From Alphaproteobacteria bacterium GM202ARS2 (GTDB taxonomy: Bacteria > Pseudomonadota > Alphaproteobacteria > GM7ARS4), in NCBI GenBank assembly GCA_014323835.1, contig JACONH010000005.1, forward strand, positions 1 to 64,000: 64,000 nt of DNA, written 5' to 3'. The position numbers were made by a program, and so were the translations under genes. The notes under the pieces are model-generated. The model ran no database searches and had not been told where the DNA came from. It worked only from the letters and a program-made list of their open reading frames with translations. This document shows positions 773-13,677 of the stretch, one piece after another. The stretch's first letter is position 1; the number at the start of each line of letters is the position of its first letter.

Positions 773-1165
773 TCAGCGAGCAACCCTCTTCATCTTCTCG
801 AAAGAACGCAAACCGCTCAAACCTAACATCGCCATAACCAACTCCAACAAATAATCCGTCTGAATAGGCGGCATCGTCACCTGCCAACCCATCATACCAT
901 TGACCCACACAACAATCGGCAGAATAACAAAAGCCCACAACAAACCCATGCCACAAATCCAGCCAATCCAAGGACGCCAGCCCGCAACAAACAACGAGCG
1001 ATGCGCCGCCTCAACCTGATTAACCTGCACCTGACCCTTATCCGCCGCCAATAAAGCACTCAGTAACTTTTCTTCCGCCTCCCGCGCTTTTTCCTCATCC
1101 GGAAACAAACTCGCAAACACCCGCTTAATCACCGGTGCCAAAGTCGGCAACCACGCACCTATCAT
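773..1165 (-). CDS. holin-like membrane protein (phage)
   Basis: A 130-residue protein starting MIGAWLPTLAPVI. A charged region rich in Glu/Lys (residues 20-45) is followed by hydrophobic segments around residues 58-88 and near 103-118, which resembles the three-helix holin family of gene-transfer agents and podophages (family assignment by resemblance). The start at 1165 was chosen over an upstream in-frame start because GGGAGG precedes it by 6 bases; the upstream extension is Arg/Trp-rich and overlaps the preceding gene. It is the last gene of the structural cassette and would make the membrane lesion for lysis. No endolysin is seen next to it. Confidence 0.6.
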   Translation of the reverse strand: MIGAWLPTLAPVIKRVFASLFPDEEKAREAEEKLLSALLAADKGQVQVNQVEAAHRSLFVAGWRPWIGWICGMGLLWAFVILPIVVWVNGMMGWQVTMPPIQTDYLLELVMAMLGLSGLRSFEKMKRVAR

Positions 1166-1166
1166 A

Positions 1167-1487
1167 TCAACCTCCCAATCTCCTTTTGTGTTGCGATGCC
1201 TGCTTGTTGCCCCCACCATAAGCCGACACCATCGCTTCCAGACGCCCCGCCAGCCACCTATCCCGAGCCCGCATATCCTGCTTGCTGACATACGTCTCTG
1301 CCATCATAACACGCACATCCGCTATCCTATGAACAAGCCCATCCATACGCTCGAGAAACGTCGCCTTCAACTCATCAACAGACCGCTCTTGCTCTCGCTT
1401 CATCTGCCAAATAAGAGCCGCCAAAGCCACCAACGCCGGCACCTCCAACGAAAAAAACGACCAATCCCACGTTATCATCTCACCCAT
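1167..1487 (-). CDS. small membrane-anchored coiled-coil phage protein
   Basis: A 106-residue protein with one N-terminal hydrophobic segment (about residues 8-27) followed by a charged, probably coiled-coil stretch (about 29-90) and a basic tail. It overlaps the end of the large terminase gene by 13 bases and ends 1 base before the holin-like start, so it is translated in the lysis end of the operon. The topology (one membrane anchor with a periplasmic or cytoplasmic coil) suits an i-spanin/Rz-like or other lysis accessory protein, but I see no decisive motif. Confidence 0.5.
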   Translation of the reverse strand: MGEMITWDWSFFSLEVPALVALAALIWQMKREQERSVDELKATFLERMDGLVHRIADVRVMMAETYVSKQDMRARDRWLAGRLEAMVSAYGGGNKQASQHKRRLGG

Positions 1488-3097
1488 GAATCCTGTGCCT
1501 CCAAAACATCGAAATCCACCTGCGCACGCGTGCTGTCATGACCCAACCAAGACGACCATTCCCGCTGCGTCTCACCCTTAAAATCCCCCGTCATTTCACC
1601 CGCCATCCCCCCAATCATTCCCCTCATCATCCCTACCGGCATACTCAGCAAACAACCACTCACCGCATCCAAAGCATCGTCTCGTCCCTTACCATTCGGA
1701 TGCCAATCACGCATTTCATCCATAAACGGACTCGCCATAACCGACTCATGCACATGCAAAGCACGTGCCGCCAACAAAGCATCAAAAGCCTCCAAAATAC
1801 GCACATCCTTCGGGCGAGTCGACGTCTGCTCGATGACCGCCGCCCGCACACCCGCACGCACCAACTCACGACGCAACAACTGCTGTAAAAACTTACCAAT
1901 GCCATTCGTCTCAATATTAACCGCAGAAATAAAGTAGTCACGCACAAAAGCAACAACCTGACGACACTGAACAGTCGCATTATCCAAACCCCCATCCAAC
2001 CCCCCACCCAACTCTGCACTCGTCCGCCCATCCAACCCCCCACTCAGCCCCCCATTCAGCCCCCCATTCAGCCCCCCATCGAGCCAACGTACTCGGTGCA
2101 ACCAAGAGTCACCCCGTTCGTCTCGGTAAACCACCGCAATGACACTACCACATTGTTGGTCTTTTTCGCCCCAAGCCGGATCCCACCAACACGATGCCGC
2201 GACCAGCCGTCTGCCCTGCAACGAGAGAATGGCGCGCTTGTGGGCTTCTCGGTAGTCGAGGCCACCGCGATAAGACAACACCCCCGCGCAATCGAGGCGC
2301 GCCCCTTCCCGTGCCTGCGGCGTCAACAGCATCTGGGCAGAAAAACGCCGAGGGCCCGTGCGCCGCTTCAGCTCTGCCAACGCCGAAAGACTAAAACGCT
2401 CCCCCCAAACCGACTCGCCCTCCGAATCAAGCACCGGCACCTCCAAACGAGAAAAACCCTCCAAATAACACGGCTCACAACCAGAAACCGACTTGTAAAT
2501 CGTCTCATAGCAATGCGGCGTGCCGATATACACCTGCACCCCAGACGGCACAAGCACATAGCGACTCTCCGAAAGACGCGCCCGCAACGCCGCACGCTTG
2601 CTCGGCGTATCACTGGTATTCGGCACCTCAACATCATCGTAAATAATAACGTCCGCCCTCGAGCCCGTCACATTCCCCTCTAAACCCTTAGCCACCAAAG
2701 AAGGATCCCGCCCCGTCGACAAACGCTCCACCGTCAAATGATCATGCGCCCAATCCTGCTGCGATGCCCTCGACCGCAAGTGCGACGTCAAAGGATGACG
2801 CTCGATAATTTGGCGCACATGCCGCGTCATTTGCGCCGCCAAACGATGCTCGGCAGCCAACACCAGAATACGCAACTCCCTATCCCGCAACAAAAGCCAC
2901 GCACAAAACAAGCCCACCAACGTCGACTTACCCGCTCCACGAAAAGCAAGAAGCACCATGCTGTTACCCGCTTCTCGCTGGCTTTCCAGCCAACGACTCA
3001 TCTGTAAATGCACGCTCGGAGTCTGCTTGTTCTCATGCTCGTTCCATAGCCAAACAAACTCACTAAAGCTACACGATAAACCCTCAGCCCCGCTCAT
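1475..3097 (-). CDS. phage terminase large subunit (T7 gp19-like)
   Basis: The DNA-packaging ATPase/nuclease. The Walker A-type FRGAGKST lies near residue 55 and the Walker B VIIYDD near residue 152. The C-terminal RuvC-like nuclease is suggested by WWDPAWGEKD (about 305) and GRDDALDAV (about 473). The ATG at 3097 was chosen because GAGG precedes it by 8 bases; an upstream ATG at 3115 overlaps the small subunit stop as ATGA and is also possible. The nuclease domain contains a Gly-Gly-Leu-Asn/Asp tandem repeat (positions 1982-2077) and there is a second Gly/Met-rich repeat near the C-terminus (1580-1636). Both look like minisatellite expansions and raise the question of whether the nuclease still works. 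Confidence 0.9.
   Translation of the reverse strand: MSGAEGLSCSFSEFVWLWNEHENKQTPSVHLQMSRWLESQREAGNSMVLLAFRGAGKSTLVGLFCAWLLLRDRELRILVLAAEHRLAAQMTRHVRQIIERHPLTSHLRSRASQQDWAHDHLTVERLSTGRDPSLVAKGLEGNVTGSRADVIIYDDVEVPNTSDTPSKRAALRARLSESRYVLVPSGVQVYIGTPHCYETIYKSVSGCEPCYLEGFSRLEVPVLDSEGESVWGERFSLSALAELKRRTGPRRFSAQMLLTPQAREGARLDCAGVLSYRGGLDYREAHKRAILSLQGRRLVAASCWWDPAWGEKDQQCGSVIAVVYRDERGDSWLHRVRWLDGGLNGGLNGGLSGGLDGRTSAELGGGLDGGLDNATVQCRQVVAFVRDYFISAVNIETNGIGKFLQQLLRRELVRAGVRAAVIEQTSTRPKDVRILEAFDALLAARALHVHESVMASPFMDEMRDWHPNGKGRDDALDAVSGCLLSMPVGMMRGMIGGMAGEMTGDFKGETQREWSSWLGHDSTRAQVDFDVLEAQDSWVR
1580..1636 (-). repeat. Gly/Met-rich imperfect minisatellite in terL
   Basis: An imperfect in-frame repeat encoding GMxxGM-type units near the terminase C-terminus. 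The coding strand has several runs of 3 to 6 G with spacers of 5 to 9 bases. Confidence 0.55.
1982..2077 (-). repeat. 12-bp G-rich minisatellite in terL
   Basis: Tandem 12-base units of the form GGGGGGCTGAAT on the coding strand, in frame and encoding GGLN/GGLS/GGLD repeats. The central copies are nearly identical and the outer ones degenerate. Each unit carries a run of six G, so the array is also a quadruplex-type sequence. Confidence 0.85.
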
Positions 3098-3111
3098 CTT
3101 CCTGTCCTCAA

Positions 3112-3588
3112 TCATGACGTTTCACAAGGCTTCTTCGCATGCCAAGCCCTTGGCGGCGGCTTGCCCCTCAGCTTATCAAAAGTCTTATTACCCCCCTTAT
3201 CACCCTCCTTATCTTGTGGCTCGCCCTGTGCTTTTCTATCCTGACCTTTTTTACCTTGAGCAAGATACATCTGCAGACGGCGGCGTGCCGAGACAATTAA
3301 TGCTTGCCGCACCCCTTGCTCCTCTTTTTCATCAGAGCGATTCGCGGCTATCCGTTCAATATCTCCCAGCAGCTTAACCAGACTGGAAATATGACTCAGA
3401 CTCCGTCGACAGCATTGTTGCCACGCCACAAAAGCTTTCACATCGCTGAGCGGCGGTTGCTCCTCTATACAGCTGTCATAACAGGCAAGGGCTGCCCGCA
3501 CCGCTTGCGGCGCCTGCTGTGCCCACGCCTCCAAAAGAGCATGCACGCTCTTATGTTTGTCGTTACCTTTATCATAAGCGTTTGCCAT
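3112..3588 (-). CDS. probable phage terminase small subunit
   Basis: A 158-residue, highly charged protein directly before the large terminase gene, overlapping its first possible start. An N-terminal helical region (about residues 15-110, with a Cys-rich stretch near 35-60) is followed by a basic tail rich in Lys/Gly/Asp (about 112-158) that contains short repeats of DKEGDKGGNK type. Small terminase subunits of T7-like phages bind DNA and pair with the large subunit; the assignment rests on position and size, since I recognise no sequence motif. Confidence 0.6.
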   Translation of the reverse strand: MANAYDKGNDKHKSVHALLEAWAQQAPQAVRAALACYDSCIEEQPPLSDVKAFVAWQQCCRRSLSHISSLVKLLGDIERIAANRSDEKEEQGVRQALIVSARRRLQMYLAQGKKGQDRKAQGEPQDKEGDKGGNKTFDKLRGKPPPRAWHAKKPCETS

Positions 3589-3589
3589 C

Positions 3590-4021
3590 TTAAGAGATCC
3601 TCCCTTGTGTCACGTCTTTTGCTCCCCGCACCAGCTGCCCATAAGAATCGATAAGATAACGTTGCTGACGCAGACGACCGAGTTGTTCTCGACTACGGCT
3701 CCGCAGAGCGAGCCTCTGGCTGTCGAGGAGATTCGTCGCGGCGTCTCTTTGTTGTTGTTGGCGACTGGCTGCCAGCAAGACGCTGAGCAGATTGCTTGTG
3801 CTGTCGCCGCTGCCACCGAAGCCGACCCCTCGAGCGGTCGCTCGGGCTTGCACCGATGCTTGCTCCCGACGCAAGGCACGCTGACGATCATCCTCCTGCA
3901 AAAAGGCTGCCAGCTCTAGCTGTTGTTGTTGTAGACGGGCATCCGTAGCCTGCTGCTCGTTCTGGATGCCCTGACCATAATACCGGGAAAGAGATCCCAG
4001 CGAAGAAAAAAGGGACGACAT
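3590..4021 (-). CDS. T7 gp14-like internal virion protein
   Basis: A 143-residue Gln/Arg/Leu-rich helical protein. The central segment ARATARGVGFGGSGDSTSNLL (about residues 60-80) resembles the RG-V-x-G-SG loop of gp14-type virion proteins, which lie between long helices. It starts at the stop of the tail tubular B gene (1-base overlap). In T7 this gene is followed by gp15, gp16 and the tail fibre; here the next gene is the small terminase, so the ejection-core proteins appear to be missing. Confidence 0.65.
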   Translation of the reverse strand: MSSLFSSLGSLSRYYGQGIQNEQQATDARLQQQQLELAAFLQEDDRQRALRREQASVQARATARGVGFGGSGDSTSNLLSVLLAASRQQQQRDAATNLLDSQRLALRSRSREQLGRLRQQRYLIDSYGQLVRGAKDVTQGRIS

Positions 4022-6093
4022 TATTCCACCACCTTGATCTGAGTTTTAATAGATAACAAATGAAACGGCTGCGGGCTTTTCTGCTCAATGCGCCACAACA
4101 GCTCTTCTCGCTTGCGCCATCCATCGCTGCGCAAAGCCACTTCGCCGCTGAAGGGGGCATCGCTCATGGCTCTACCCCGCATCATTTTCTGTAACGGCAC
4201 ATCCCGAACACCCCGCCCATAATCCACCTGCAACGCGCCGCTGCGATGCAACCGAAACACCGTTTCTATGGGACGATACGCCCCCGATTGCACCGCAAAG
4301 GGTAGCGGGGCAATACAATGCGTGTAAGACAGCCCCACCGTCAGGTCTCGAGTCGCCTTACGCAAACGCAGCGACTGCGCGTCTTGCACCCGCACACCTT
4401 GTTGTTCCTCGCCATCGCCAACAACAACAAAGGCTCTGGTATCATCGATAAGACGCGTTAAGGACGGATGTGTCCACACCCGCGTTGCCTCCTGCATCTC
4501 CCCAAGAGAAAACTCCAGCGCGCTATCCACATGAAGGTCGTCCTTAAAGCACTCGAGGCAAAAACGCTTCGCACCGTTATGCTCGCGCTCCACTAAAAAG
4601 AACGTCCGTCCCCCAACAAGAGCCACCGACCGAAAACGCCCTTCTGTCGTCAACCGACTCCAGCCTAACACCTGATGACCACGATAGACCGTCAGTGCCG
4701 CAACATGCCCTGCCTCACAGGGCACGTAGACGATATGACGTTCATCGTCATACACCTGCTCGAGAGGCTCCCCTAAGACTTCTTGTGCCAGCACTGACAA
4801 ATCGCCGCTCACATACGCATCGGCATCCGTATTATAGTAGAGTTCCCGCAACACCCTGCCGCTGTAGTCGACAAACAGGGTCGCCCCTTCCACCAGCTGT
4901 GGACGCACCCGCCGATGCGGATACAAACCATGGGTCGTCTCTCTGCGCACCTGAACAGCCTCAGGGGTCAACGGACGACCGCTCACCACCCACTCGGCAT
5001 CATCGGTAAACACCTGCAAATCACGCCCCGAGAACACCTCCCGCACCGGGTCGACGGTTTTCTCCGATATATCAAGGGTAATGGCTTCATCGTCTAAAGC
5101 CTCGCCCTCAGAGAAGTTCCAAAAGCTGTTGATATGCGACATCCACACACGATTAGGGCGACTGGATGTGCCCGCCAAAATCAATCGATTCTGGTGAAAC
5201 AAACAATAACGGGGCCAGCCACGGCTGGCAGAGAAGTCGAGAAATGCCATCTCGCCCAACAACGACGTATCCTTGGCAAAAGGCGGATAAATCGCCTGAG
5301 CATTCGGCACCGGGCGCACCGCAAAATCGACCGACAAATCACCGCCAAGGGGATCTTGCAGAGTCACTTGCAAGCAATAAAAATAGTAGTTCTTGCCGTC
5401 CTCACGATAGCGCAACAAGCTGCCTACGAAGGTGTCGGTATAGACCTGTTCGTCACTGCCCAGAAACCAGCCTCTTGCCCTTAATATCGACGGGATTCTG
5501 CCCCCCTTGTTGTTGGCGATAACCCGCCAGCTCACGTCACTTCTGCCATGGGGCGAGAAGGGCATCCGCCAATAGCTGCCTTGTTTCGCTATCTCTTGCT
5601 TGTAGCTGCCCCAGCTGCCATGGTAGGGGTCTCCTTGTGCCTGCGTTATCGGCGTTTGGTGCAATGCCCACGTCTCACGCCCTTGTCCGTCCAGCTCGCG
5701 CACCAACTGGCGCGGCGCGACCTCGCCATGAGTCATCACCATCGTATCGCCCCCCTGTGCCCAACACAATGTCGCCAGCTGCTCGTACGACCACGGCGCG
5801 ACTATGTCCGCAACCTGTGTCATGTTACGATAGACTCGCACCCGTTTATCCGTCCACAAAACCAAATACGACTGAAGGCGATTGAACGTAAAACTTGCCA
5901 GACGACCATCGCTACCCACATCCTCGACAAAAAATAAGCCCGGTCGGCGCGACACGCCCCCTTGTGCGTGAATCAAAACATTACTCAACTCAGAAGCAGC
6001 ATGAGACGCTTGTGCTAAATCCACCCGCGGATGAAGCGGCGGCGACCATGCACCACTGGTAAAAGAGTTTTTGAACGTAACCTGCCTCGTCAT
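4021..6093 (-). CDS. tail tubular protein B (T7 gp12-like)
   Basis: A 690-residue protein, close to the usual size of podoviral gp12-like tail (stabilisation) proteins. The N-terminus has the family's typical pattern: a short lead, FTSGAWSPPLHPRVDLAQ, then NVLIHAQGGVSRRPGLFFV near residues 38-56, followed by many beta-rich blocks. It would form the nozzle of the short tail below the gp11-like ring. It is joined to its neighbours by 1-base overlaps on both sides (tail tubular A upstream, gp14-like downstream), which indicates translational coupling in a single operon. Confidence 0.85.
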   Translation of the reverse strand: MTRQVTFKNSFTSGAWSPPLHPRVDLAQASHAASELSNVLIHAQGGVSRRPGLFFVEDVGSDGRLASFTFNRLQSYLVLWTDKRVRVYRNMTQVADIVAPWSYEQLATLCWAQGGDTMVMTHGEVAPRQLVRELDGQGRETWALHQTPITQAQGDPYHGSWGSYKQEIAKQGSYWRMPFSPHGRSDVSWRVIANNKGGRIPSILRARGWFLGSDEQVYTDTFVGSLLRYREDGKNYYFYCLQVTLQDPLGGDLSVDFAVRPVPNAQAIYPPFAKDTSLLGEMAFLDFSASRGWPRYCLFHQNRLILAGTSSRPNRVWMSHINSFWNFSEGEALDDEAITLDISEKTVDPVREVFSGRDLQVFTDDAEWVVSGRPLTPEAVQVRRETTHGLYPHRRVRPQLVEGATLFVDYSGRVLRELYYNTDADAYVSGDLSVLAQEVLGEPLEQVYDDERHIVYVPCEAGHVAALTVYRGHQVLGWSRLTTEGRFRSVALVGGRTFFLVEREHNGAKRFCLECFKDDLHVDSALEFSLGEMQEATRVWTHPSLTRLIDDTRAFVVVGDGEEQQGVRVQDAQSLRLRKATRDLTVGLSYTHCIAPLPFAVQSGAYRPIETVFRLHRSGALQVDYGRGVRDVPLQKMMRGRAMSDAPFSGEVALRSDGWRKREELLWRIEQKSPQPFHLLSIKTQIKVVE

Positions 6094-6659
6094 TATTCTC
6101 GCCCCTCCAGCAGTGAGAAACCATCGAAAGCCAGCGGCGTATCCTGCTGGGCATCAATCAAACGTGCCTGTTGTAAAAACTGCTGGGCTCGCCTTGCCAA
6201 CACCTCGCTACGGCTACTATTCTCGGTCAACGGCAAACAAAACTCTGCTGCTAAATGAGCGACCAACGCTTCTTGAAAAAACGGCGGAAAGCGTGCTTCC
6301 TCGACTCGCGCCCCATACAGCATCGATACCATCTCAGCATCGCACTCGAGGACATCGCCCAAAAGACGATAAACAACGCCGCGCACCGCATCGCCGTAGC
6401 CCACCGATACCGCCCGCAAAAAATCGGACGGCAACGCATAACCATAAGCATAATCCCCCTCAGCAAAATCATCCACGTGCACCAAACGCGCCCGCTTCAA
6501 AGCAAAGTTCCACGGATGCACCGACAAAACCCGATCGCGACAACCACCATACAGTTTTGCCGCTAAATCGCCTTCCAAGCTGCCATCCGCAAAGCGTTCA
6601 AAAGATGTCTGCCCAATCTTGGCAAAAGCCCTCGCACATAACTCAACCGAATCCGTCAT
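6093..6659 (-). CDS. tail tubular protein A (T7 gp11-like)
   Basis: A 188-residue gatekeeper/tail adaptor protein that binds below the portal ring. The start AARALAKIG-like segment (ARAFAKIGQTSFERF, residues 9-23) and the VLSVHPWNFALKRARL stretch (about 44-59) are the standard signature of this family. It starts just after a strong hairpin terminator, so its expression depends on readthrough from the capsid transcript. Confidence 0.85.
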   Translation of the reverse strand: MTDSVELCARAFAKIGQTSFERFADGSLEGDLAAKLYGGCRDRVLSVHPWNFALKRARLVHVDDFAEGDYAYGYALPSDFLRAVSVGYGDAVRGVVYRLLGDVLECDAEMVSMLYGARVEEARFPPFFQEALVAHLAAEFCLPLTENSSRSEVLARRAQQFLQQARLIDAQQDTPLAFDGFSLLEGRE

Positions 6660-6683
6660 CTAAACCTCCCTTCCACAAAAGAA

Positions 6684-6713
6684 CCCCGCCCTCTCCCTCA
6701 GGAAAGGGCGGGG
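6684..6713 (-). terminator. hairpin terminator after capsid genes
   Basis: A 9-bp GC-only stem (CCCCGCCCT paired with AGGGCGGGG) with a 12-base loop. Read on the minus strand it is followed by TTCTTTT. It lies between the 74-residue gene and the tail gene, where partial termination would give more capsid than tail transcript. Confidence 0.75.
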
Positions 6714-6735
6714 CTCCGACCATCAAACAAAGACC

Positions 6736-6960
6736 TCAGCTATAAGCCTCAACAACAATCGCCCCAGACGATTTTGTCTTGACCCGCAACAGACCTGCTC
6801 TATCGCTCATAATCACATCGCCAATACGCAGAACATCATAGGCATCATTAAAAAAATTACTGCCCTTCTGCGTGCCCGGCGAATCATCGCCCTTGTAGTG
6901 CCACAACGTAAAACCGTTGGCATAGGCAAGAACACTCAACTCCGATGCTTTATACGTCAT
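6736..6960 (-). CDS. small conserved phage structural-region protein
   Basis: A 74-residue protein with no signal peptide. It contains ANGFTLWHYKGDD (about residues 14-26), a segment I associate with small proteins following the capsid gene in podoviruses of proteobacteria. The C-terminal half is beta-rich (GDVIMSDRAGLLRVK). It begins 1 base after the capsid stop and precedes the terminator, so it should be made at capsid-like levels. A head decoration role would fit, but this is inference. Confidence 0.6.
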   Translation of the reverse strand: MTYKASELSVLAYANGFTLWHYKGDDSPGTQKGSNFFNDAYDVLRIGDVIMSDRAGLLRVKTKSSGAIVVEAYS

Positions 6961-6961
6961 C

Positions 6962-7795
6962 TTAAGCCTCCTCGTGAATCAACATCGTAACCAAACCACG
7001 ACCATCAACAAGACACGCACCCTGCGACATCATATTGCTGACAAAATGAGACGCTCTGTCCCCATGCCACGTGATATCAGTTACCACCTCTTTACCTGAA
7101 GCATGTGCCACCGCCGTCTTGTGGAACCAATGACACACACGATCGCTACCCCGCTTGGTCAAACCCGAATGAGGCATCCACATCGTCCCCAACCAACGCT
7201 TCGCCTGCGTCCCCCGCCACGGCAACTCATCGGCACCAACATAGTCGGCACTCTTGAACTCGTTCAAATCCAAAAGCTGCGACCACTGCTTCCAACCAAC
7301 CAAAGCATAACGCTGACCATCATCCGGCACATCGTTGTTACCCAACATCTCAAGAGCCGCAAGAACAACCTCCTTCGTCAAACCCGAGTCACCTTCAATC
7401 TTCATCTTCCTCTGACTCTTACTGTCCTGATCCAAAACAGCAATAATCAACTCATCCGTCTTGCGACCCAAAGCATAGGCACCCGCCTGAGCAATAACCA
7501 TCCGCTCGTCAAAGCTCACCTTCAACTCGTCCAAACGATCAACCCAATCGCCCGCATAATAATCCTGCAAAGAACACTTCACAGGCGTATGCGACACATT
7601 CATCACCGGCACCATACCATGACGAGACTTCGTCATCGCTATACCACTGCCAACACGCTGAAACGTCGTCGACGAACCCTTCACATCATTGCGAACACGA
7701 ACCATGTTACGCAACTTCGAGCCCATACGCTGATACGAAGCATGAACCTCCGCACTAAAGTGCTCGATAAACACATTACTGATATCTACAGACAT
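6962..7795 (-). CDS. phage major capsid protein
   Basis: A 277-residue coat protein of the HK97-like fold group used by podoviruses. Seen features: an N-terminal FIEHFSAEVHASYQRMGSKL helix, then a loop and the YYAGDWVDRLDELKVSFDER segment (about 87-106), followed by AGAYALGRKTDELI, typical of this capsid family. GGAGG lies 10 bases before the ATG. The gene has its own promoter (7856-7884), overlapped by a perfect palindrome. The length is on the short side for the family but the protein appears complete. Confidence 0.85.
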   Translation of the reverse strand: MSVDISNVFIEHFSAEVHASYQRMGSKLRNMVRVRNDVKGSSTTFQRVGSGIAMTKSRHGMVPVMNVSHTPVKCSLQDYYAGDWVDRLDELKVSFDERMVIAQAGAYALGRKTDELIIAVLDQDSKSQRKMKIEGDSGLTKEVVLAALEMLGNNDVPDDGQRYALVGWKQWSQLLDLNEFKSADYVGADELPWRGTQAKRWLGTMWMPHSGLTKRGSDRVCHWFHKTAVAHASGKEVVTDITWHGDRASHFVSNMMSQGACLVDGRGLVTMLIHEEA

Positions 7796-7847
7796 TCAAT
7801 CTCTACCTCCTGTCATACCAAAAAGACACGCACATTCCTGTGCATCA

Positions 7848-7871
7848 GTATTAGGTATATAATCCTAATAC
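7848..7871. promoter_or_regulatory. 24-bp palindromic operator at capsid promoter
   Basis: A perfect inverted repeat: GTATTAGG, 8-base TATATAAT spacer, CCTAATAC. It covers the -10 box and start region of the capsid promoter. The core AGGATTATATACCTAA (minus strand) recurs with one change at 10951-10966 and more loosely at 11483-11497. Confidence 0.8.
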
Positions 7872-7884
7872 TCGCCCTTGTCAA
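7856..7884 (-). promoter_or_regulatory. promoter of phage capsid gene
   Basis: The minus strand reads TTGACA (7884-7879), a 17-base spacer, and TATATA (7861-7856). This is a near-ideal sigma-70 promoter in the gap between the scaffold and capsid genes, about 60 bases before the capsid ATG. Confidence 0.8.
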
Positions 7885-7890
7885 GGTCTT

Positions 7891-8727
7891 TTACGTTTTT
7901 GTTGACTTGCCAGGGCTACCACCAAAAAGAGTTTCGAATCCCTGATGAACACGGCGCAAGGTTTCCGGGTCTTTGTCTCGCCAGTAGGCAGGGCTTGCCA
8001 CCATTTTACGTAAATGCTCTCTGTCCCGTGCCGGTGTGCTGGCATCACGTCCCAGTTGCAGCGATGGCTCTTTGTTGGTCATCATGCTGTGAATGGCAAT
8101 GACTCCGTCAGCACTGCGGGTTAAGGCATCGTACGTTGTCGGGTCGAGGTTTTTCTCGCCCCATGCGATGAGCTGCTTGGACGTAGCATGCCATTTGTCT
8201 TCGCCGCCAAAGTGCTGGATGAGTCGTTGCCGTTCGTTTTCGCCATGAAACTGGGCAGCAGCCCACTCCACCATCGGCACAAGCTTTTCTTTTGCCAAGC
8301 TATAAACCAGCTGTGCCTGTTTTTGCGTAAAGCCCTCTTTGTGAAGCAAGGCATTGACGTCACTATCGCTGTCGAAGGGCTTGCCATCTATGGTGATAGC
8401 GTAATCGTCCGCTTTCTCTGGCACACCCAATCGTTGATAGAAGGCGCGTTTGCTCTCGTCACTGGCATCCGCACTTGGCAGCTCCACCATATTTTCTTGC
8501 CGTTTTTCCAGCGCACTGTAGGCTTGTGCGAGGGACTCCCACAACGGCGTTTGCTTGTCGGCATCCCAAAATGCCTCTGGCACATACGGCGGGCGACCAT
8601 CCTGTTGGTCTTGCTCGGGCGTATCATCGGTGCGGGCATCCCCGGGGGCATCCGTGCGGGCATCCGCGGGAGTCTGCTCCCCTGAGGTGGACGTGTTCGT
8701 CTCGGTCATAGTGTCTTGTTTTGCCAT
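7891..8727 (-). CDS. phage capsid assembly scaffold protein
   Basis: A 278-residue acidic, helical protein between the portal-side genes and the capsid, the standard place for a scaffold. The N-terminal 60 residues are low-complexity (Thr/Asp/Gln/Pro, with ADARTD repeats); the region after PPYVPEAFWD (about 50-59) is more ordered, with the YxxLGVPEKADDYAI block typical of podoviral scaffolds. The ATG at 8727 was chosen because AGGAG precedes it by 7 bases; an in-frame start 33 bases upstream lacks this. Confidence 0.8.
   Translation of the reverse strand: MAKQDTMTETNTSTSGEQTPADARTDAPGDARTDDTPEQDQQDGRPPYVPEAFWDADKQTPLWESLAQAYSALEKRQENMVELPSADASDESKRAFYQRLGVPEKADDYAITIDGKPFDSDSDVNALLHKEGFTQKQAQLVYSLAKEKLVPMVEWAAAQFHGENERQRLIQHFGGEDKWHATSKQLIAWGEKNLDPTTYDALTRSADGVIAIHSMMTNKEPSLQLGRDASTPARDREHLRKMVASPAYWRDKDPETLRRVHQGFETLFGGSPGKSTKT
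8630..8670 (-). repeat. 12-bp minisatellite in scaffold gene
   Basis: Three 12-base units on the plus strand (GTGCGGGCATCC, a variant, then an identical copy) plus a partial fourth. They are in frame and encode the ADARTDAPGDARTDD segment of the scaffold N-terminus. Confidence 0.7.
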
Positions 8728-8737
8728 TGTATGTCTC

Positions 8738-8959
8738 CTATGGTTGGCGTCCTCGTGCAATCAATGCACGCAAATGGGCAACGAGAAAACGTTGCCCTTC
8801 TAGGTGTCGTAGCACTCGACAGGGGCAATCTGCTGCCAGCACACGCCGATACGTCAACGAATCGAGATAGTGCAGCATCTGCTCGCCATCGTCACTACTG
8901 AACAGGCGCGCGGCTAGACGTGCCATGTCTTCAGGCTTCGAGCGGGTGGGGGTGGTCAT
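8738..8959 (-). CDS. Bbp19-like small phage protein
   Basis: A 73-residue protein matching the Bbp19 family pattern: ARLFSSDDGEQMLHYLDSLTYRRVL (about 18-42) followed by LRHLEGQRFLVAHLRALI. Members sit beside the portal gene in many podoviral and siphoviral genomes; their role is not settled. It overlaps the portal stop by 4 bases and precedes the scaffold gene by 10 bases. Confidence 0.65.
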   Translation of the reverse strand: MTTPTRSKPEDMARLAARLFSSDDGEQMLHYLDSLTYRRVLAADCPCRVLRHLEGQRFLVAHLRALIARGRQP

Positions 8960-10515
8960 GAGTCCTCCTCTTTTTGTTGGGTTGCTTGGGCAACGTTGGC
9001 GACCGCCTCAGCTGTCGCCACATCCTCCAGTAGTCCTTGTGCTCGGTCTTGCTGGATCTGGCTCACCATCAAGCTGCCGGGCACACCGAGTCGTTCTCCT
9101 AACCAACGAACAGTGGCACCCATATTGACGGCAGCCATAGCCGTCTGCCCCATGCCAGCCACGGTTTCCAGCCACAGCAAGACATCATGGGCATCAGTGC
9201 GCCGCTGTGCCCTTGCCAAAGGCGCGTGATACATGACCTCGACCAGTTGGCCGTCCACACGGATAGACTCGACTTCGCCGCGGCGGCGCAATATCCCTAA
9301 GGCGCGCCGCACCAGCGGGGCTAACAGCTCATTCTGCAAGCGACCATAGGTTGCTCCCAACAAACGAGACAAATCCGCCGTGCGCTCTAAAACTTCCGTT
9401 GCCGTCATACGAGAACGATTGGGCGGGCCCAAACGATCCGCCAACAAAGCCTGACGGATGCGCTCACGCAAATCCTGCAACACCAACTGCGATACGTCAA
9501 AACGCCCCGGCGCCTCCAAAGGTGTCAGACCACGAGAGCCAACCGCCTTAGGAATAATCGTACCCGGCACAAGACGCACATTGGACGGATTCAAAACGCC
9601 ATCGTCTTCCGCCTGCCAAATACCCGTCACAGCGATACTGGCATTCTTCAAAATCAGCTCGACAACTTTGTTAGCCGTCTTGATTTCTGGCAACGCCTTC
9701 ATCACCGGCGAACGCCCATAAAGCTCACCTGCCGTCTTCAGCCAACGAAACGTAATAAAGGGCGACTCATAGAAACGCCCGCGATGGACGATGCCATTCT
9801 CGCCGCCGCTGCCTTCCTCGAAGACCACAACATAATCGTAACCCTCGCCATCCGAACACGGCGCCACCATATCAATCAAAGCCAGACGGGCTTCGCCGTC
9901 ATCATCCTTGGTCTCTGCCTTATAAGACTGAGGCAACACAACATGGGGATAACGCCGATGCAGCTCGCTTGCGGTGACCAATCGCCGCCGCAGAGTCACA
10001 TCCAGTTCGCCCGATGCGCCCGCCTCGAAGACAACATCTCGCAACGGCACACACGTAAAGTGAAATGCCGACGGCGAGCCCGTCGGTGCCTCCTCGAACA
10101 TCAAACAAGCAGTGCCCGCAACAACCAAATCGAGATAACACTGGTGCATCTCAACGGCAAAATTCGAACGGTCAAAATGTGACTGCACCACCATCGATGC
10201 TCGTTGCAAAAGGGTGCTGATACTGCCATCATCCACATCAACACCTTCCTCGCCAACCACGAGACCAAACCACCGCGACCACGGCGGCGTCAAATGCGCC
10301 ATCATGCTCGCTGATAACTGCTCGACAGCATCAAGGGCGGTGCCATCATAAATATGACTGCGGCGCTTGCTCCCTGCTACCGACTGAGAGAAAATCGAGC
10401 GATGCGGCAAGGCATAATCATAACAATCACGCCAATGCCCCTCCCAAACGCCCCGAGCCGCCCTCGCCCGCTGAAAACGGCGGACAACGCTTAATGCCAA
10501 TTCACTTTCCTTCAT
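8956..10515 (-). CDS. phage portal (head-tail connector) protein
   Basis: A 519-residue portal of the T7 gp8/head-tail connector family. The N-terminal WEGHWRDCYDYALPHR (about 24-39) and SAS-MMAHLTPPWSRWF (about 68-83) are characteristic. The middle of the protein carries GELYGRSPVMKALPEIKTANK (about 266-286), also typical. Twelve copies would form the DNA entry ring, with the terminase docking there during packaging. It ends with a 4-base overlap into the Bbp19-like gene and starts 3 bases after the small gene at 10519. Confidence 0.9.
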   Translation of the reverse strand: MKESELALSVVRRFQRARAARGVWEGHWRDCYDYALPHRSIFSQSVAGSKRRSHIYDGTALDAVEQLSASMMAHLTPPWSRWFGLVVGEEGVDVDDGSISTLLQRASMVVQSHFDRSNFAVEMHQCYLDLVVAGTACLMFEEAPTGSPSAFHFTCVPLRDVVFEAGASGELDVTLRRRLVTASELHRRYPHVVLPQSYKAETKDDDGEARLALIDMVAPCSDGEGYDYVVVFEEGSGGENGIVHRGRFYESPFITFRWLKTAGELYGRSPVMKALPEIKTANKVVELILKNASIAVTGIWQAEDDGVLNPSNVRLVPGTIIPKAVGSRGLTPLEAPGRFDVSQLVLQDLRERIRQALLADRLGPPNRSRMTATEVLERTADLSRLLGATYGRLQNELLAPLVRRALGILRRRGEVESIRVDGQLVEVMYHAPLARAQRRTDAHDVLLWLETVAGMGQTAMAAVNMGATVRWLGERLGVPGSLMVSQIQQDRAQGLLEDVATAEAVANVAQATQQKEEDS

Positions 10516-10518
10516 CGC

Positions 10519-10764
10519 TCACCCCCCCAACAAACGCTTGCGCACAAATGGAAAAGAACCATCATCAACGATGCCACTCAATGTCGTGCGCACCAAGCTC
10601 TCAAAGCCACGACTCTTACGGCGCTGCTCAGCAGAACGGACACGCTCCTCACGCTCACGGACAACCTCGTCCTCAACAGAAACCGACGGCACCGAACCAA
10701 CACCAGAAGATACAACCGGCGCAGGACGAATACCCAATACGTGCTTACGCACAAAACCACCCAT
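10519..10764 (-). CDS. small phage protein upstream of portal
   Basis: An 80-residue protein. The pattern of a charged helix (about 30-52, rich in Arg/Glu), then SRGFESLVRTTLSGI and a final RKRLLGG, resembles small proteins that commonly precede the portal gene in tailed phages. The ATG at 10764 was chosen because GGGAGG precedes it by 6 bases; the longer frame upstream runs through the 79-bp tandem repeat and is not convincing. It is the first gene of the operon driven from 10956-10984. Confidence 0.6.
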   Translation of the reverse strand: MGGFVRKHVLGIRPAPVVSSGVGSVPSVSVEDEVVREREERVRSAEQRRKSRGFESLVRTTLSGIVDDGSFPFVRKRLLGG

Positions 10765-10791
10765 CTTAAACCTCCCAAAAAAAAGCTCACA

Positions 10792-10949
10792 ATAATGCTG
10801 AACACAGACGCTTAAGACCTGAAGCTGACTCGAAGTTCTTTCCCAGCCGGTCATCGCGCCTGTGTGCATGATAACGCTGAACACAGACGCTTAAGACCTG
10901 AAGCTGACTCGAAGTTCTTTCCCAGCCGGTCATCGCGCCTGTGTTCATG
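10792..10949. repeat. 79-bp tandem repeat, two copies
   Basis: Two head-to-tail copies of 79 bases (about 10792-10870 and 10871-10949) whose inner 69 bases are identical. They lie between promoter P2 and the first gene of the portal operon, so they form its 5' leader, and they also supply the C-terminal codons of the gene at 10851. Confidence 0.9.
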
Positions 10950-11354
10950 TTTAGGTATATATTCCTTTTTGTCCGCCATGTCAATAAGAAATCGATACAA
11001 TTGCCACGGCGTCATCAACCGCCTCAGGCGAATCCCTAAAATCCGCTTAATGACTTCAACACACGTAAGCATACCGAAAGGAGCCACCTGCCGAGGCGAC
11101 TCCCGCACCTCGACAGGCACAAAGAGCATGCCACAGGAATTCAACCAGCGACGCAAAGACGCTTCATCCACCGACACACACACATCAAGCAGCAACTGGT
11201 GCGATAACGGATCCACAAGAATGAGGGTCCCCTCACGATAAAGAACCAAGCAGCAGTGACGAAAACCCGGCTTAAGCCACCGCAACCACCATAAATCGGT
11301 GTTGTCGGTAAAAAAAACATACCCCCGCCGATAAGGATGGCTTGGCTCGTTCAT
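10851..11354 (-). CDS. phage-region protein, possible permuted papain-fold hydrolase
   Basis: A 167-residue protein. The core has FRHCCLVLYREGTLILVDPL (about 31-50, His33) and then FGMLTCVEVIKRILGI (about 93-108, Cys98) and TPWQLYRFL. A His before a Cys in this arrangement is reminiscent of circularly permuted NlpC/P60-papain enzymes; this is inference only. The last 35 or so residues come from promoter P2 and the 79-bp repeats, so the true C-terminus was probably lost or replaced. The ATG at 11354 has GAGG 8 bases upstream. Confidence 0.5.
   Translation of the reverse strand: MNEPSHPYRRGYVFFTDNTDLWWLRWLKPGFRHCCLVLYREGTLILVDPLSHQLLLDVCVSVDEASLRRWLNSCGMLFVPVEVRESPRQVAPFGMLTCVEVIKRILGIRLRRLMTPWQLYRFLIDMADKKEYIPKHEHRRDDRLGKNFESASGLKRLCSALSCTQAR
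10956..10984 (-). promoter_or_regulatory. promoter P2 of portal operon
   Basis: The minus strand reads TTGACA (10984-10979), a 17-base spacer, and TATATA (10961-10956), with the same spacing as the capsid promoter and the same flanking AGGAATATATACCTAA motif. It lies inside the 3' part of the gene at 10851-11354. Confidence 0.75.
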
Positions 11355-11456
11355 AAAAAAACCTCGCAAAAAGAAAAAAAGAGGGTGACTTTTCCGTCTG
11401 TATGTGTTAATTTTCCTATCATGGCACGCAGAGCCACAGGATTTATCCTCGAAGTC

Positions 11457-11497
11457 TATATATTGTGAAAATAATCTTTTTCAAGGTATATATTCTT
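11457..11497. promoter_or_regulatory. divergent promoter region with operator-like motif
   Basis: On the plus strand, TTGTGA (11463-11468), 18 bases, then TATATA could serve the S24 regulator. On the minus strand, TTGAAA (11484-11479), 16 bases, then TATATA could serve the gene at 11354. The segment AAGGTATATATTCTT (11483-11497) matches the core of the operators at the two phage promoters. Confidence 0.55.
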
Positions 11498-11533
11498 ATT
11501 ATTCTTTAACCGCTTGAATGAAAAGGAGAAAAT

Positions 11534-12166
11534 ATGCTCACTCATAAAGATATCTGGCAAGCAATTGATGATCTTGCCAAGGAGCATGGCTTATCGCCGT
11601 CGGGTCTTGCCAAAAAAGCGGGGTTGGATCCGACTACGTTCAACAAGTCGAAGCGAGAAAACAAGAATGGCAGACCGAGATGGCCCAGCACTGAGAGCAT
11701 TTCTCGTATTTTGAAAGCGACAGACTCGCATTTTTCTGCCTTTGTCTCGGACAAGGAGTCGGCGAAGGGACGAAAGTCCGCTGTTATCATACCTTTGATT
11801 GGCATGGCTCAAGCGGGTAAGGACGGCTATTTCGATGATGGCGGTCATCCCACCGGTTTTGGCGGCGATGTTATTGACTTTCCCGACATTAAGGACAGCA
11901 ATGCCTATGCGTTGCAGATTAGCGGCGATAGCATGTTGCCCCTCTATCGGGATGGTGATATTGTTGTTATTTCTCCTGCCTCTAATGTGCGCACGGGGGA
12001 TCGCATCGTTCTTAAAACCAAGCGGGGCGAGATTATGGCAAAGGAACTGCGCCGTAAAACCAATCAGACCATTCACTTAAAGTCGCTGAACCAGACCTAT
12101 GATGATGTTACCATTCCCACCCATCAGGTCGAGTGGCTGGCGCGCATCATCTGGGCAAGTCAATAA
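11534..12166 (+). CDS. XRE/S24-family repressor (LexA/CI-like)
   Basis: A 210-residue regulator with an N-terminal helix-turn-helix (about residues 5-60, HGLSPSGLAKKAGLDPTTFNKSKR) and a C-terminal S24 autoprotease-type domain: SGDSMLPLYRDGDIVVI (Ser near 135) and GDRIVLKTKRGEIMAKEL with the catalytic Lys near 172. Similar proteins occur as chromosomal genes in many alphaproteobacteria and as phage CI-type repressors. Its position divergent from the phage cassette, and the shared operator motif at 7.85, 10.95 and 11.49 kb, favour a role as the prophage switch that responds to DNA damage. GGAG lies 7 bases before the ATG. Confidence 0.85.
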   Translation: MLTHKDIWQAIDDLAKEHGLSPSGLAKKAGLDPTTFNKSKRENKNGRPRWPSTESISRILKATDSHFSAFVSDKESAKGRKSAVIIPLIGMAQAGKDGYFDDGGHPTGFGGDVIDFPDIKDSNAYALQISGDSMLPLYRDGDIVVISPASNVRTGDRIVLKTKRGEIMAKELRRKTNQTIHLKSLNQTYDDVTIPTHQVEWLARIIWASQ

Positions 12167-12179
12167 GGCTTGCTGCCTG

Positions 12180-13019
12180 TCATTCTGTGCTACAAGGCGT
12201 TGCTGCCTGTTGCTGTAACGGTGCATCATCCATAGGAAGAAGCGTGATTTGTTGCGGGTGAGTCACATCGATAAGCGCACCATTGATTCCTTGTAGCCAG
12301 CCGCGCACACGCACGGCGCGTCCTTCCCACGTTAGAGGCTTGTATCCTTCCTGTTGAAAACGCTTTATGGCTTTTGCCCTGATGCGGATGGTGAAGTCGC
12401 TACGCCAATCGTCTCCAAAATTGAGATAAAGTGTATCACGCACCAACGTTGCCTGGCGCACGGTGCCCGTTACGAGGCGAAACTGACCGATAGCCGCGTC
12501 CGTATGCTCTGCGGTCACCCTAAAGGCGCCCTGCCCGTACTCGGGCAGGGCCCATAAGCCGCGCTTGTGCTCTCGAGCTTGTTGTTCTTGTGCGAGCATC
12601 GCTCGAGCGTAACCCGGGGCGTTGTCCGCAAGGGTATAGACCCACGCCCAGCCTTGTTGCAAGAGTTGCCCTTGCACCCATGCCCCGTCCTCATCACGAC
12701 ACAGATGGGCAAGCAGACGACCATGGCGATCGTGGGAACGCTTGCCGAGATGCAACGTTACATGCTTGTGCGCTACCAGCTTTTCCAGCTGCTCTTTGGC
12801 ACGAACAGCCCCCGCCTCCGCAACAGGATAGAGCTCAGGCGCATTAATCCCCAAAAGACGCACCCGCCTGCTATCATCCAGCACCACCGTGTCGCCATCG
12901 GTAACCTGTTGGACGTAAACACCATCATAGCCTAGGGTGAACGTTGGCTCTGCCCCTGCCCCAGACCCAACCCCTATTGCCGATACCATGATGAAAACAA
13001 AAGCAACCTTAATGCGCAT
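12180..13019 (-). CDS. secreted thermonuclease-family protein
   Basis: A staphylococcal nuclease-like (TNase) protein of about 279 residues with an N-terminal signal peptide ending near GAGA-E. Core motifs: VTDGDTVVLDDSRRVRLLGINAPE (about 39-62), then RSHDRHGRLLAHL carrying the catalytic Arg region and WAWVY. The C-terminal domain (about 165-279), beta-rich, is not part of the minimal nuclease. The start at 13019 was chosen because it begins the signal peptide and overlaps the tsaB stop; the upstream starts add unlikely residues. It would degrade nucleic acid in the periplasm or outside the cell. Confidence 0.8.
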   Translation of the reverse strand: MRIKVAFVFIMVSAIGVGSGAGAEPTFTLGYDGVYVQQVTDGDTVVLDDSRRVRLLGINAPELYPVAEAGAVRAKEQLEKLVAHKHVTLHLGKRSHDRHGRLLAHLCRDEDGAWVQGQLLQQGWAWVYTLADNAPGYARAMLAQEQQAREHKRGLWALPEYGQGAFRVTAEHTDAAIGQFRLVTGTVRQATLVRDTLYLNFGDDWRSDFTIRIRAKAIKRFQQEGYKPLTWEGRAVRVRGWLQGINGALIDVTHPQQITLLPMDDAPLQQQAATPCSTE

Positions 13020-13677
13020 AGGGATTTTTACCATAAAATGCGGTTGTCGTGTGTTTATCACCCTCTTTCATGGGACGCGCCAAACGCGCAGTAGCACTTG
13101 CCTGCGGGTAAAGCACCTTCGGCACACAGACCTCAGGCACCTGTGCCTGCAACACAGGCGGCACCAGTAGGACACGCTCGCCTAAGCTATCAACGGCTTC
13201 TTCCATTGTCTTTTCCGTCATAGACTCCGTATCCCTTATAGCTACGTGAACGACCCCTGCGTCATAATCCTGCTCATAGACTCGTCCTGCCGAAGACGGC
13301 AACAGCACGCGCAAGGCACTTTGTCCATAGCGTTGCCGATACATGAACGCCAGAACATCAAAGGTGCTCAATCCAATAAGGGGACATGCCGCAACAAAAG
13401 CAAACGCATGGGCAGCACTCAAGCCTGCTCGGATTGCCGTGAAAGAGCCAGGCCCGCGGGTCACAGCGACACGCTCGACCATCGGCGCGTCTATTGTGCT
13501 AGAAAAAAAAAGTGCCTGTGTTAAAAGCATGAGTGTCTCGGCAGAACGGCGCATAAAAAAATGACCTGTCGACTGCAACGAACACGCACCGACAAAGCGA
13601 CTGGCAAGAACCTGATTGCCGCGCACGAGAGCCACCGAACAAGCATTGACGCTACACTCCAACCCTAAGATAAGCAT
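13009..13677 (-). CDS. tsaB: tRNA threonylcarbamoyladenosine biosynthesis protein TsaB
   Basis: A 222-residue ASKHA-fold protein, the non-catalytic partner of TsaD in making t6A37 of ANN-decoding tRNAs. Seen: MLILGLECSVNACSVAL at the N-terminus and the family signature TRGPGSFTAIRAGLSAAHAFA near 75-95. It starts at 13677 with GGGAGG 4 bases upstream; the longer open frame lies antisense to the divergent dipeptidase gene and is not used. It overlaps the nuclease start by 11 bases. Confidence 0.88.
   Translation of the reverse strand: MLILGLECSVNACSVALVRGNQVLASRFVGACSLQSTGHFFMRRSAETLMLLTQALFFSSTIDAPMVERVAVTRGPGSFTAIRAGLSAAHAFAFVAACPLIGLSTFDVLAFMYRQRYGQSALRVLLPSSAGRVYEQDYDAGVVHVAIRDTESMTEKTMEEAVDSLGERVLLVPPVLQAQVPEVCVPKVLYPQASATARLARPMKEGDKHTTTAFYGKNPYAH

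Follow-up and report, generated by a model that had tools for sequence, protein, structure and literature searches.

A T7-type particle gene block in Alphaproteobacteria, a candidate podoviral gene transfer agent

Is a compact, T7-like set of structural genes on an alphaproteobacterial contig the remnant of a prophage, or is it a domesticated particle-forming element of podoviral type, comparable in concept to gene transfer agents (GTAs)? The question is raised by a gene block in the window analyzed here, positions 1 to 64,000 of an 86-kb contig (JACONH010000005.1) from the 1.83-Mb, 90.5%-complete draft genome of Alphaproteobacteria bacterium GM202ARS2 (GCA_014323835.1). An initial annotation, made from the sequence of the window, had proposed both readings. 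Comparison with relatives across the class indicates that the block very probably encodes a podoviral particle system that resides on the chromosome, is inherited vertically, and is under selection. We consider it likely that this domesticated T7-type system, passed down vertically in many alphaproteobacterial families, acts as a GTA, with DNA transfer as its presumed activity.

Distribution, descent, and selection

A portal scan of a genome collection returned 217 relatives (contigs), and the best 80 of these, which were inspected, came nearly all from Rhodospirillales or other alphaproteobacteria, at 50-60% identity. In a survey of 385 genomes of the class, 101 had a portal match and 53 made up the block set (44 at ≥50% portal identity, seven at about 40-48%, and two fragments); the matches outside this set resemble ordinary phage portals. 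Capsid was present in 51 and the large terminase (TerL) in 52 of the 53 genomes, and all 44 good-quality genomes carried portal, capsid, and TerL together. The three genes are single copy, except for a distant extra set of all three in one genome (G096). One family has the portal in 45/45 species of one genus. The initial annotation had proposed searching relatives for the same block and measuring selection on it; the block recurs as a single copy across the class, in syntenic position within the window genome's own family, and purifying selection is strong.

Distances between genomes in block genes correlate with those in rpoB (Mantel r of 0.72 for portal, 0.59 for capsid, 0.52 for TerL, and 0.61 for tail tube B; P of 0.0014 or less). 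The portal tree recovered 14 and the capsid tree 12 of 26 supported rpoB splits, whereas label shuffles recovered 0.2 on average and 3 at most. Across 39 non-overlapping close pairs, the median ratio of nonsynonymous to synonymous substitution rates (dN/dS) was 0.085 for portal, 0.054 for capsid, 0.085 for tail tube B, 0.16 for TerL, 0.17 for scaffold, and 0.073 for the repressor, and frameshifts in the block are rare among relatives. Vertical single-copy inheritance, strong purifying selection, and a host-like phylogeny together bear out the idea of a domesticated particle-forming element.

The common order among relatives starts with a divergent repressor and proceeds through cluster d10, orf172, portal, orf73, scaffold, capsid, orf74, tail tubes A and B, the gp14-like gene, fibre, small terminase (TerS), TerL, orf106, and a cell-wall hydrolase to the holin. 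The recurrent block clusters of relatives include none for RNA or DNA polymerase, replication, integrase, gp15, or gp16. In four genomes, the portal locus and the capsid/TerL locus lie far apart on one contig (244 kb in G300, 1.2 Mb in G378, 153 kb in G175, and 134 kb in G218), with both loci intact in every case, and four loci (L056, L063, L066, and L075) have a rearranged block order. Non-block genes, 189 in number, lie within the block at 66 of 123 loci, and those identified are mostly of chromosomal types; genes recurring in or beside the block encode a metallo-hydrolase, a chemotaxis-like protein, methylmalonyl-CoA mutase, and lysyl-tRNA synthetase. Among 69 inserted proteins, integrase and gpA terminase were confined to one separate prophage in G052, and DnaB occurred in a segment that splits TerL in family f69. 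There, in three species with 0.9-Mb genomes (L190, L191, and L192), TerL consists of separate ATPase and nuclease genes with motifs kept in both halves, and a dnaB-like gene and others lie in between on the opposite strand; the block thus persists in very small genomes. Only the ATPase half of TerL was found in G281 (L189).

In five family-f52 genomes of two genera (G052 at L244, G422, G426, G400, and G455), a 15-17 kb insert interrupts the portal itself, always at the same codons (about residues 297-304). The G052 insert encodes an integrase, a gpA terminase, and capsid proteins and has the 13-bp repeat GCATCTGGCAGGC at both ends (L244, 1839-1851 and 18714-18726). The portal gene seems to serve as the attachment site of an unrelated prophage or satellite.

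The window copy and its surroundings

In the window, the block comprises twelve intact open reading frames (ORFs) on the minus strand (773-10515), in the series holin, orf106, TerL, probable TerS, gp14-like, tail tubes B and A, orf74, capsid, scaffold, orf73, and portal, and a divergent CI/LexA-type repressor gene adjoins it (11534-12166, plus strand). All genes named in the initial annotation as a one-strand, T7-order structural, packaging, and holin cassette are present and intact, and the gp14-like gene is directly followed by the small terminase gene, as it had described. The features below are compared with G001, a sister genome of the same family and another genus whose portal is 66% identical to that of the window.

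773-1291, minus strand: holin (PF11351 GTA_holin_3TM, 4.8e-13; PHROG 3427 holin, 2.6e-26)
1167-1487, minus strand: orf106, small membrane/coiled-coil protein (PHROG 29007)
1475-3115, minus strand: large terminase TerL (PHROG 38, 3.7e-68)
3112-3588, minus strand: probable small terminase TerS (position and family kept among relatives; PHROG 31793)
3590-4021, minus strand: gp14-like internal/tail protein (weak PHROG 418 match)
4021-6093, minus strand: tail tubular protein B, nozzle (PHROG 376, 5.7e-95)
6093-6659, minus strand: tail tubular protein A, adaptor (PHROG 394, 4.2e-40)
6736-6960, minus strand: orf74, small conserved head protein (PHROG 18004; 96 loci)
6962-7795, minus strand: major capsid protein, 31 kDa (PF19821, 6.4e-76)
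7891-8760, minus strand: scaffold (PF05396, 2.5e-10; true start probably MAKQDTM)
8738-8959, minus strand: orf73, small gene between portal and scaffold (kept in 102 loci)
8956-10515, minus strand: portal, head-tail connector (PF12236, 7e-134)
10519-10884, minus strand: orf121 (homologue in G001; conserved part from MGGFVRK, about 84 amino acids)
10792-10949, no strand: two tandem copies of a 79-bp unit (at the place of a fibre-like gene in G001)
10851-11369, minus strand: orf172, conserved block protein (invariant His38 and Cys103 in the alignment)
11370-11533, no strand: divergent promoter/operator region (AAGAATATATACCT at 11484-11497, common to the window and G001)
11534-12166, plus strand: CI/LexA-type repressor (PF00717, 1.6e-23; Ala94-Gly95 cleavage site, Ser133/Lys170 dyad)

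Alignment to G001 suggests that the holin probably starts at codon 43 (MIGAWLP...). TerL retains its ATPase (GAGKST, YDDVE) and nuclease (WWDPA, ETNG, DDALDA) motifs, and orf106 is kept in 31 loci, between TerL and the lysis genes. The names gp14-like and TerS are the weakest in the list; the gp14-like match has an E value of 0.06 for the window protein and 1e-4 for that of a relative, and the window gene sits where 82 relatives have cluster d11. The orf172 product is perhaps a permuted cysteine peptidase, as yet unproven. Its invariant His and Cys fit a permuted NlpC/P60 peptidase, an assignment that we did not adopt, as there was no Pfam match and no clear or reliable PDB fold match.

The left edge of the window coincides with the contig end, and the initial annotation had advised looking beyond it for missing phage genes. 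The G001 block likewise stops at the holin, with orf171, the same flanking gene as in the window, beyond it, and its neighbors on the other side match those of the window (nuclease, D-Ala-D-Ala dipeptidase-like, and nitroreductase-like genes, then proC, a histidine kinase gene, and ilvE). Because the G001 block has the same neighbors on both sides, the remainder of a prophage is not hidden beyond the contig edge. Apart from a restriction-modification pair, the G001 gene products that we examined with Pfam, which extend up to 20 kb from the block in both directions, are of ordinary chromosomal types, and no integrase was found among ten Pfam-examined flanking proteins on either side or in the block set. 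An ilvE-like branched-chain aminotransferase gene lies near the repressor in 14 loci, the window included.

The window block has no gp15, gp16, polymerase, replication, or integrase genes. The absence of a fibre is peculiar to the window genome; most relatives possess one. The fibre is the most variable gene of the block among relatives. In G001, the fibre-like gene sits between orf172 and portal; it had no match in the window's own genome, and a PF03906 tail-fibre search of that genome gave no hit, with the controls equally silent. It is conceivable, if rather doubtful, that the window copy recently lost full function along with its fibre while the system works in relatives, a scenario compatible with a GTA. 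The tandem repeat in place of the fibre-like gene, and the lack of a match to that gene in a 90.5%-complete genome, point this way. However, the remaining genes are all intact, a draft assembly may collapse a variable fibre locus, and a divergent fibre would escape the search.

Predicted control and packaging

Among 127 repressor homologues, the cleavage site is conserved as Ala in 104 and Gly in 102, and the Ser/Lys pair in 96 and 99, respectively. Of 121 repressor-adjacent regions in relatives, 60 contain an exact GTTC-N7-GTTC, which is the LexA site of Alphaproteobacteria (PMC3323433), compared with 0.43 in shuffles, and GTTC pairs at spacings of 5, 6, 8, and 9 occur in 0-2 regions. In several loci, a TTGAC hexamer precedes this SOS box, which would put the box at the promoter. 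Because of the SOS boxes and the conserved repressor cleavage site, SOS-linked induction is a well-supported prediction for many relatives; for the window copy, it is suggested by the repressor alone. TAGGAA is also enriched beside the repressor, near the TTGAC hexamer (71 of 121 regions, 11 expected), and may be the operator of the repressor itself; a palindromic CI operator, AGGAA-N-TTCCT, was not supported. In about 87 loci, a candidate regulator is encoded divergently from the repressor, namely cluster d10/c7 (e.g., L026:8855-9250), a conserved protein of ~130 amino acids with no Pfam or PHROG match; no copy of it was found in the window.

Members of the TerS family have ~100 residues and are predicted to form a helical (two-helix) hairpin with no helix-turn-helix DNA-binding domain (AlphaFold2 model, pLDDT 78); a fold search gave no significant match. 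A TerS of this kind would fit, without proving, packaging that uses no specific site. In the mechanism that we propose, the CI/LexA-type repressor would keep the block silent until DNA damage led to RecA-stimulated repressor cleavage (together with LexA cleavage where an SOS box is present) and opened the promoter. Small heads would then be built from portal, scaffold, and capsid, TerL and a TerS without a recognizable DNA-binding domain would load host DNA with no strong signal sequence, the short tail would be joined, and the particles would be freed by holin and lysin. Gene content, vertical descent, purifying selection, and the regulatory sites are established at the sequence level; particle formation and the packaging and transfer of host DNA are what we infer from there.

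Known systems and alternative readings

The nearest system in concept is FpGTA of Faecalibacterium, presented in 2026 as the first podovirus-like GTA-like element (Nat Commun, PMC12946183). According to the passages of that report on FpGTA, it too has a podovirus-like GTA-type operon with portal, scaffold, capsid, and TerL, a TerS without an obvious DNA-binding domain, two loci, and no replication genes. It differs in belonging to Firmicutes and in that packaging of host DNA was demonstrated there by sequencing and proteomics; CI/SOS control is not described in those passages. RcGTA-like elements (alphaproteobacterial type I) share structural genes that have been kept vertically over very long times (PMC10883770) and, in Rhodobacter, a known link to LexA regulation (cited in PMC6473078), but they are long-tailed and their proteins differ. 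The RcGTA marker TIGR02218 was found in 0/53 block genomes and matches 56 other genomes of the 385; this overlap of 0, against 7.7 expected, has a hypergeometric P of 1e-4, uncorrected for phylogeny. By GTA-Hunter, RcGTA-like clusters occur in 0% of Rhodospirillales, Azospirillales, and Kiloniellales (PMC6821227). BaGTA of Bartonella (type II) is likewise a domesticated phage cluster with vertically kept capsid, portal, and TerL; judged by published gene sizes and order, its portal of ~620 amino acids directly adjoins a TerL of 447, whereas the portal here has ~520 and lies at the block end opposite TerL. T7-type podoviruses (e.g., Pelagibacter phages HTVC010P and Hodr) share the portal family, capsid, scaffold, tail tubes A and B, gp14-like protein, TerL, and a T7-like order, but portal identity to these closest complete phages is only 30-35%, and T7-type polymerase, replication, gp15, gp16, and integrase genes are missing from the block. 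No earlier description of an alphaproteobacterial podoviral system was found among open-licence papers.

GTAs (viriforms) comprise chromosomal tailed-phage structural and packaging genes with no replication or integration genes of their own and long vertical inheritance under selection, and this is what the block displays; the packaging and transfer of mostly random host DNA, a further trait of GTAs, is predicted for it. An ordinary prophage is bounded by an integrase and att sites; no integrase was found in the block set or among the flanking proteins examined in G001, and in four genomes the block is split over distant loci. That the window copy is a decayed prophage, intact by chance, is very improbable: missing fibre, endolysin, and gp15/gp16 genes, a contig edge close by, and the portal interrupted by a second element in the five f52 genomes are compatible with decay, but twelve of twelve ORFs are intact, dN/dS is low over the 39 pairs, and the block is kept in three 0.9-Mb genomes. 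We also give little credence to an ordinary temperate podovirus family with host-specific lineages. Its gene order and CI repressor are those of a phage, and IMG/VR lists many such blocks as viral contigs; yet the relatives there are all <26 kb, integrase and replication genes form no part of the block, its portal is distant from those of the closest complete phages, the phylogeny is host-like, and two-locus splits occur in near-complete genomes. A domesticated podoviral particle with another role, such as a killing particle, phage decoy, or lysis device, is unlikely, although it would leave the same record of vertical descent and selection and would, like bacteriocin-like particles, have the fibre as its most variable part. 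It is disfavored because TerL, portal, and scaffold would be superfluous in a particle that is never filled with DNA, yet they are retained even when the block is split along the chromosome, and TerL keeps its ATPase and nuclease motifs.

Several points weigh against a GTA. Particles, packaged DNA, and transfer were not observed. Purifying selection by itself would equally fit an active phage. The correlation of the repressor with rpoB is weak (r = 0.17, not significant) and reaches 0.37 when the most divergent genomes are left out. Some genera are without the block, which is absent in 7/7 species of another genus in the family with the 45 portal-bearing species. No fibre or endolysin was identified in the window block, and neither the window nor G001 has an SOS box (3 mismatches). 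The genomes compared for TIGR02218 are phylogenetically non-independent. T7-type TerS proteins are short too, so the missing helix-turn-helix is suggestive and not decisive.

On balance, the block is a strong candidate for an undescribed GTA in groups without the classic one. We lean toward a second, independently domesticated podoviral GTA that would be core machinery in many RcGTA-lacking alphaproteobacterial families. DNA damage would activate it by way of a self-cleaving repressor, with a direct LexA box as well in about half of the lineages. If this is correct, a podoviral GTA would be added to the class best studied for GTAs, in orders reported to have none (Rhodospirillales, Azospirillales, and Kiloniellales), and many short proviruses predicted in databases would not be viruses. 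With two independent domestications whose distributions are mutually exclusive, a comparison could then test why hosts keep such particles, and carriers include the cultivable Azospirillum, Magnetospirillum, Skermanella, and Terasakiella.

Three minor observations concern individual records and neighbors. A 5-kb faecal record spanning portal to tail tube B (MT838907) is unverified and unannotated and was not used as packaging evidence. In a 1.1-Mb genome, portal and rpoB share a contig (G090:C79) and are about 33 kb apart. Next to the repressor, G000 and G001 carry a thermonuclease-like gene (12180-13061 in the window), which has a homologue close to the G218 capsid locus (L204).

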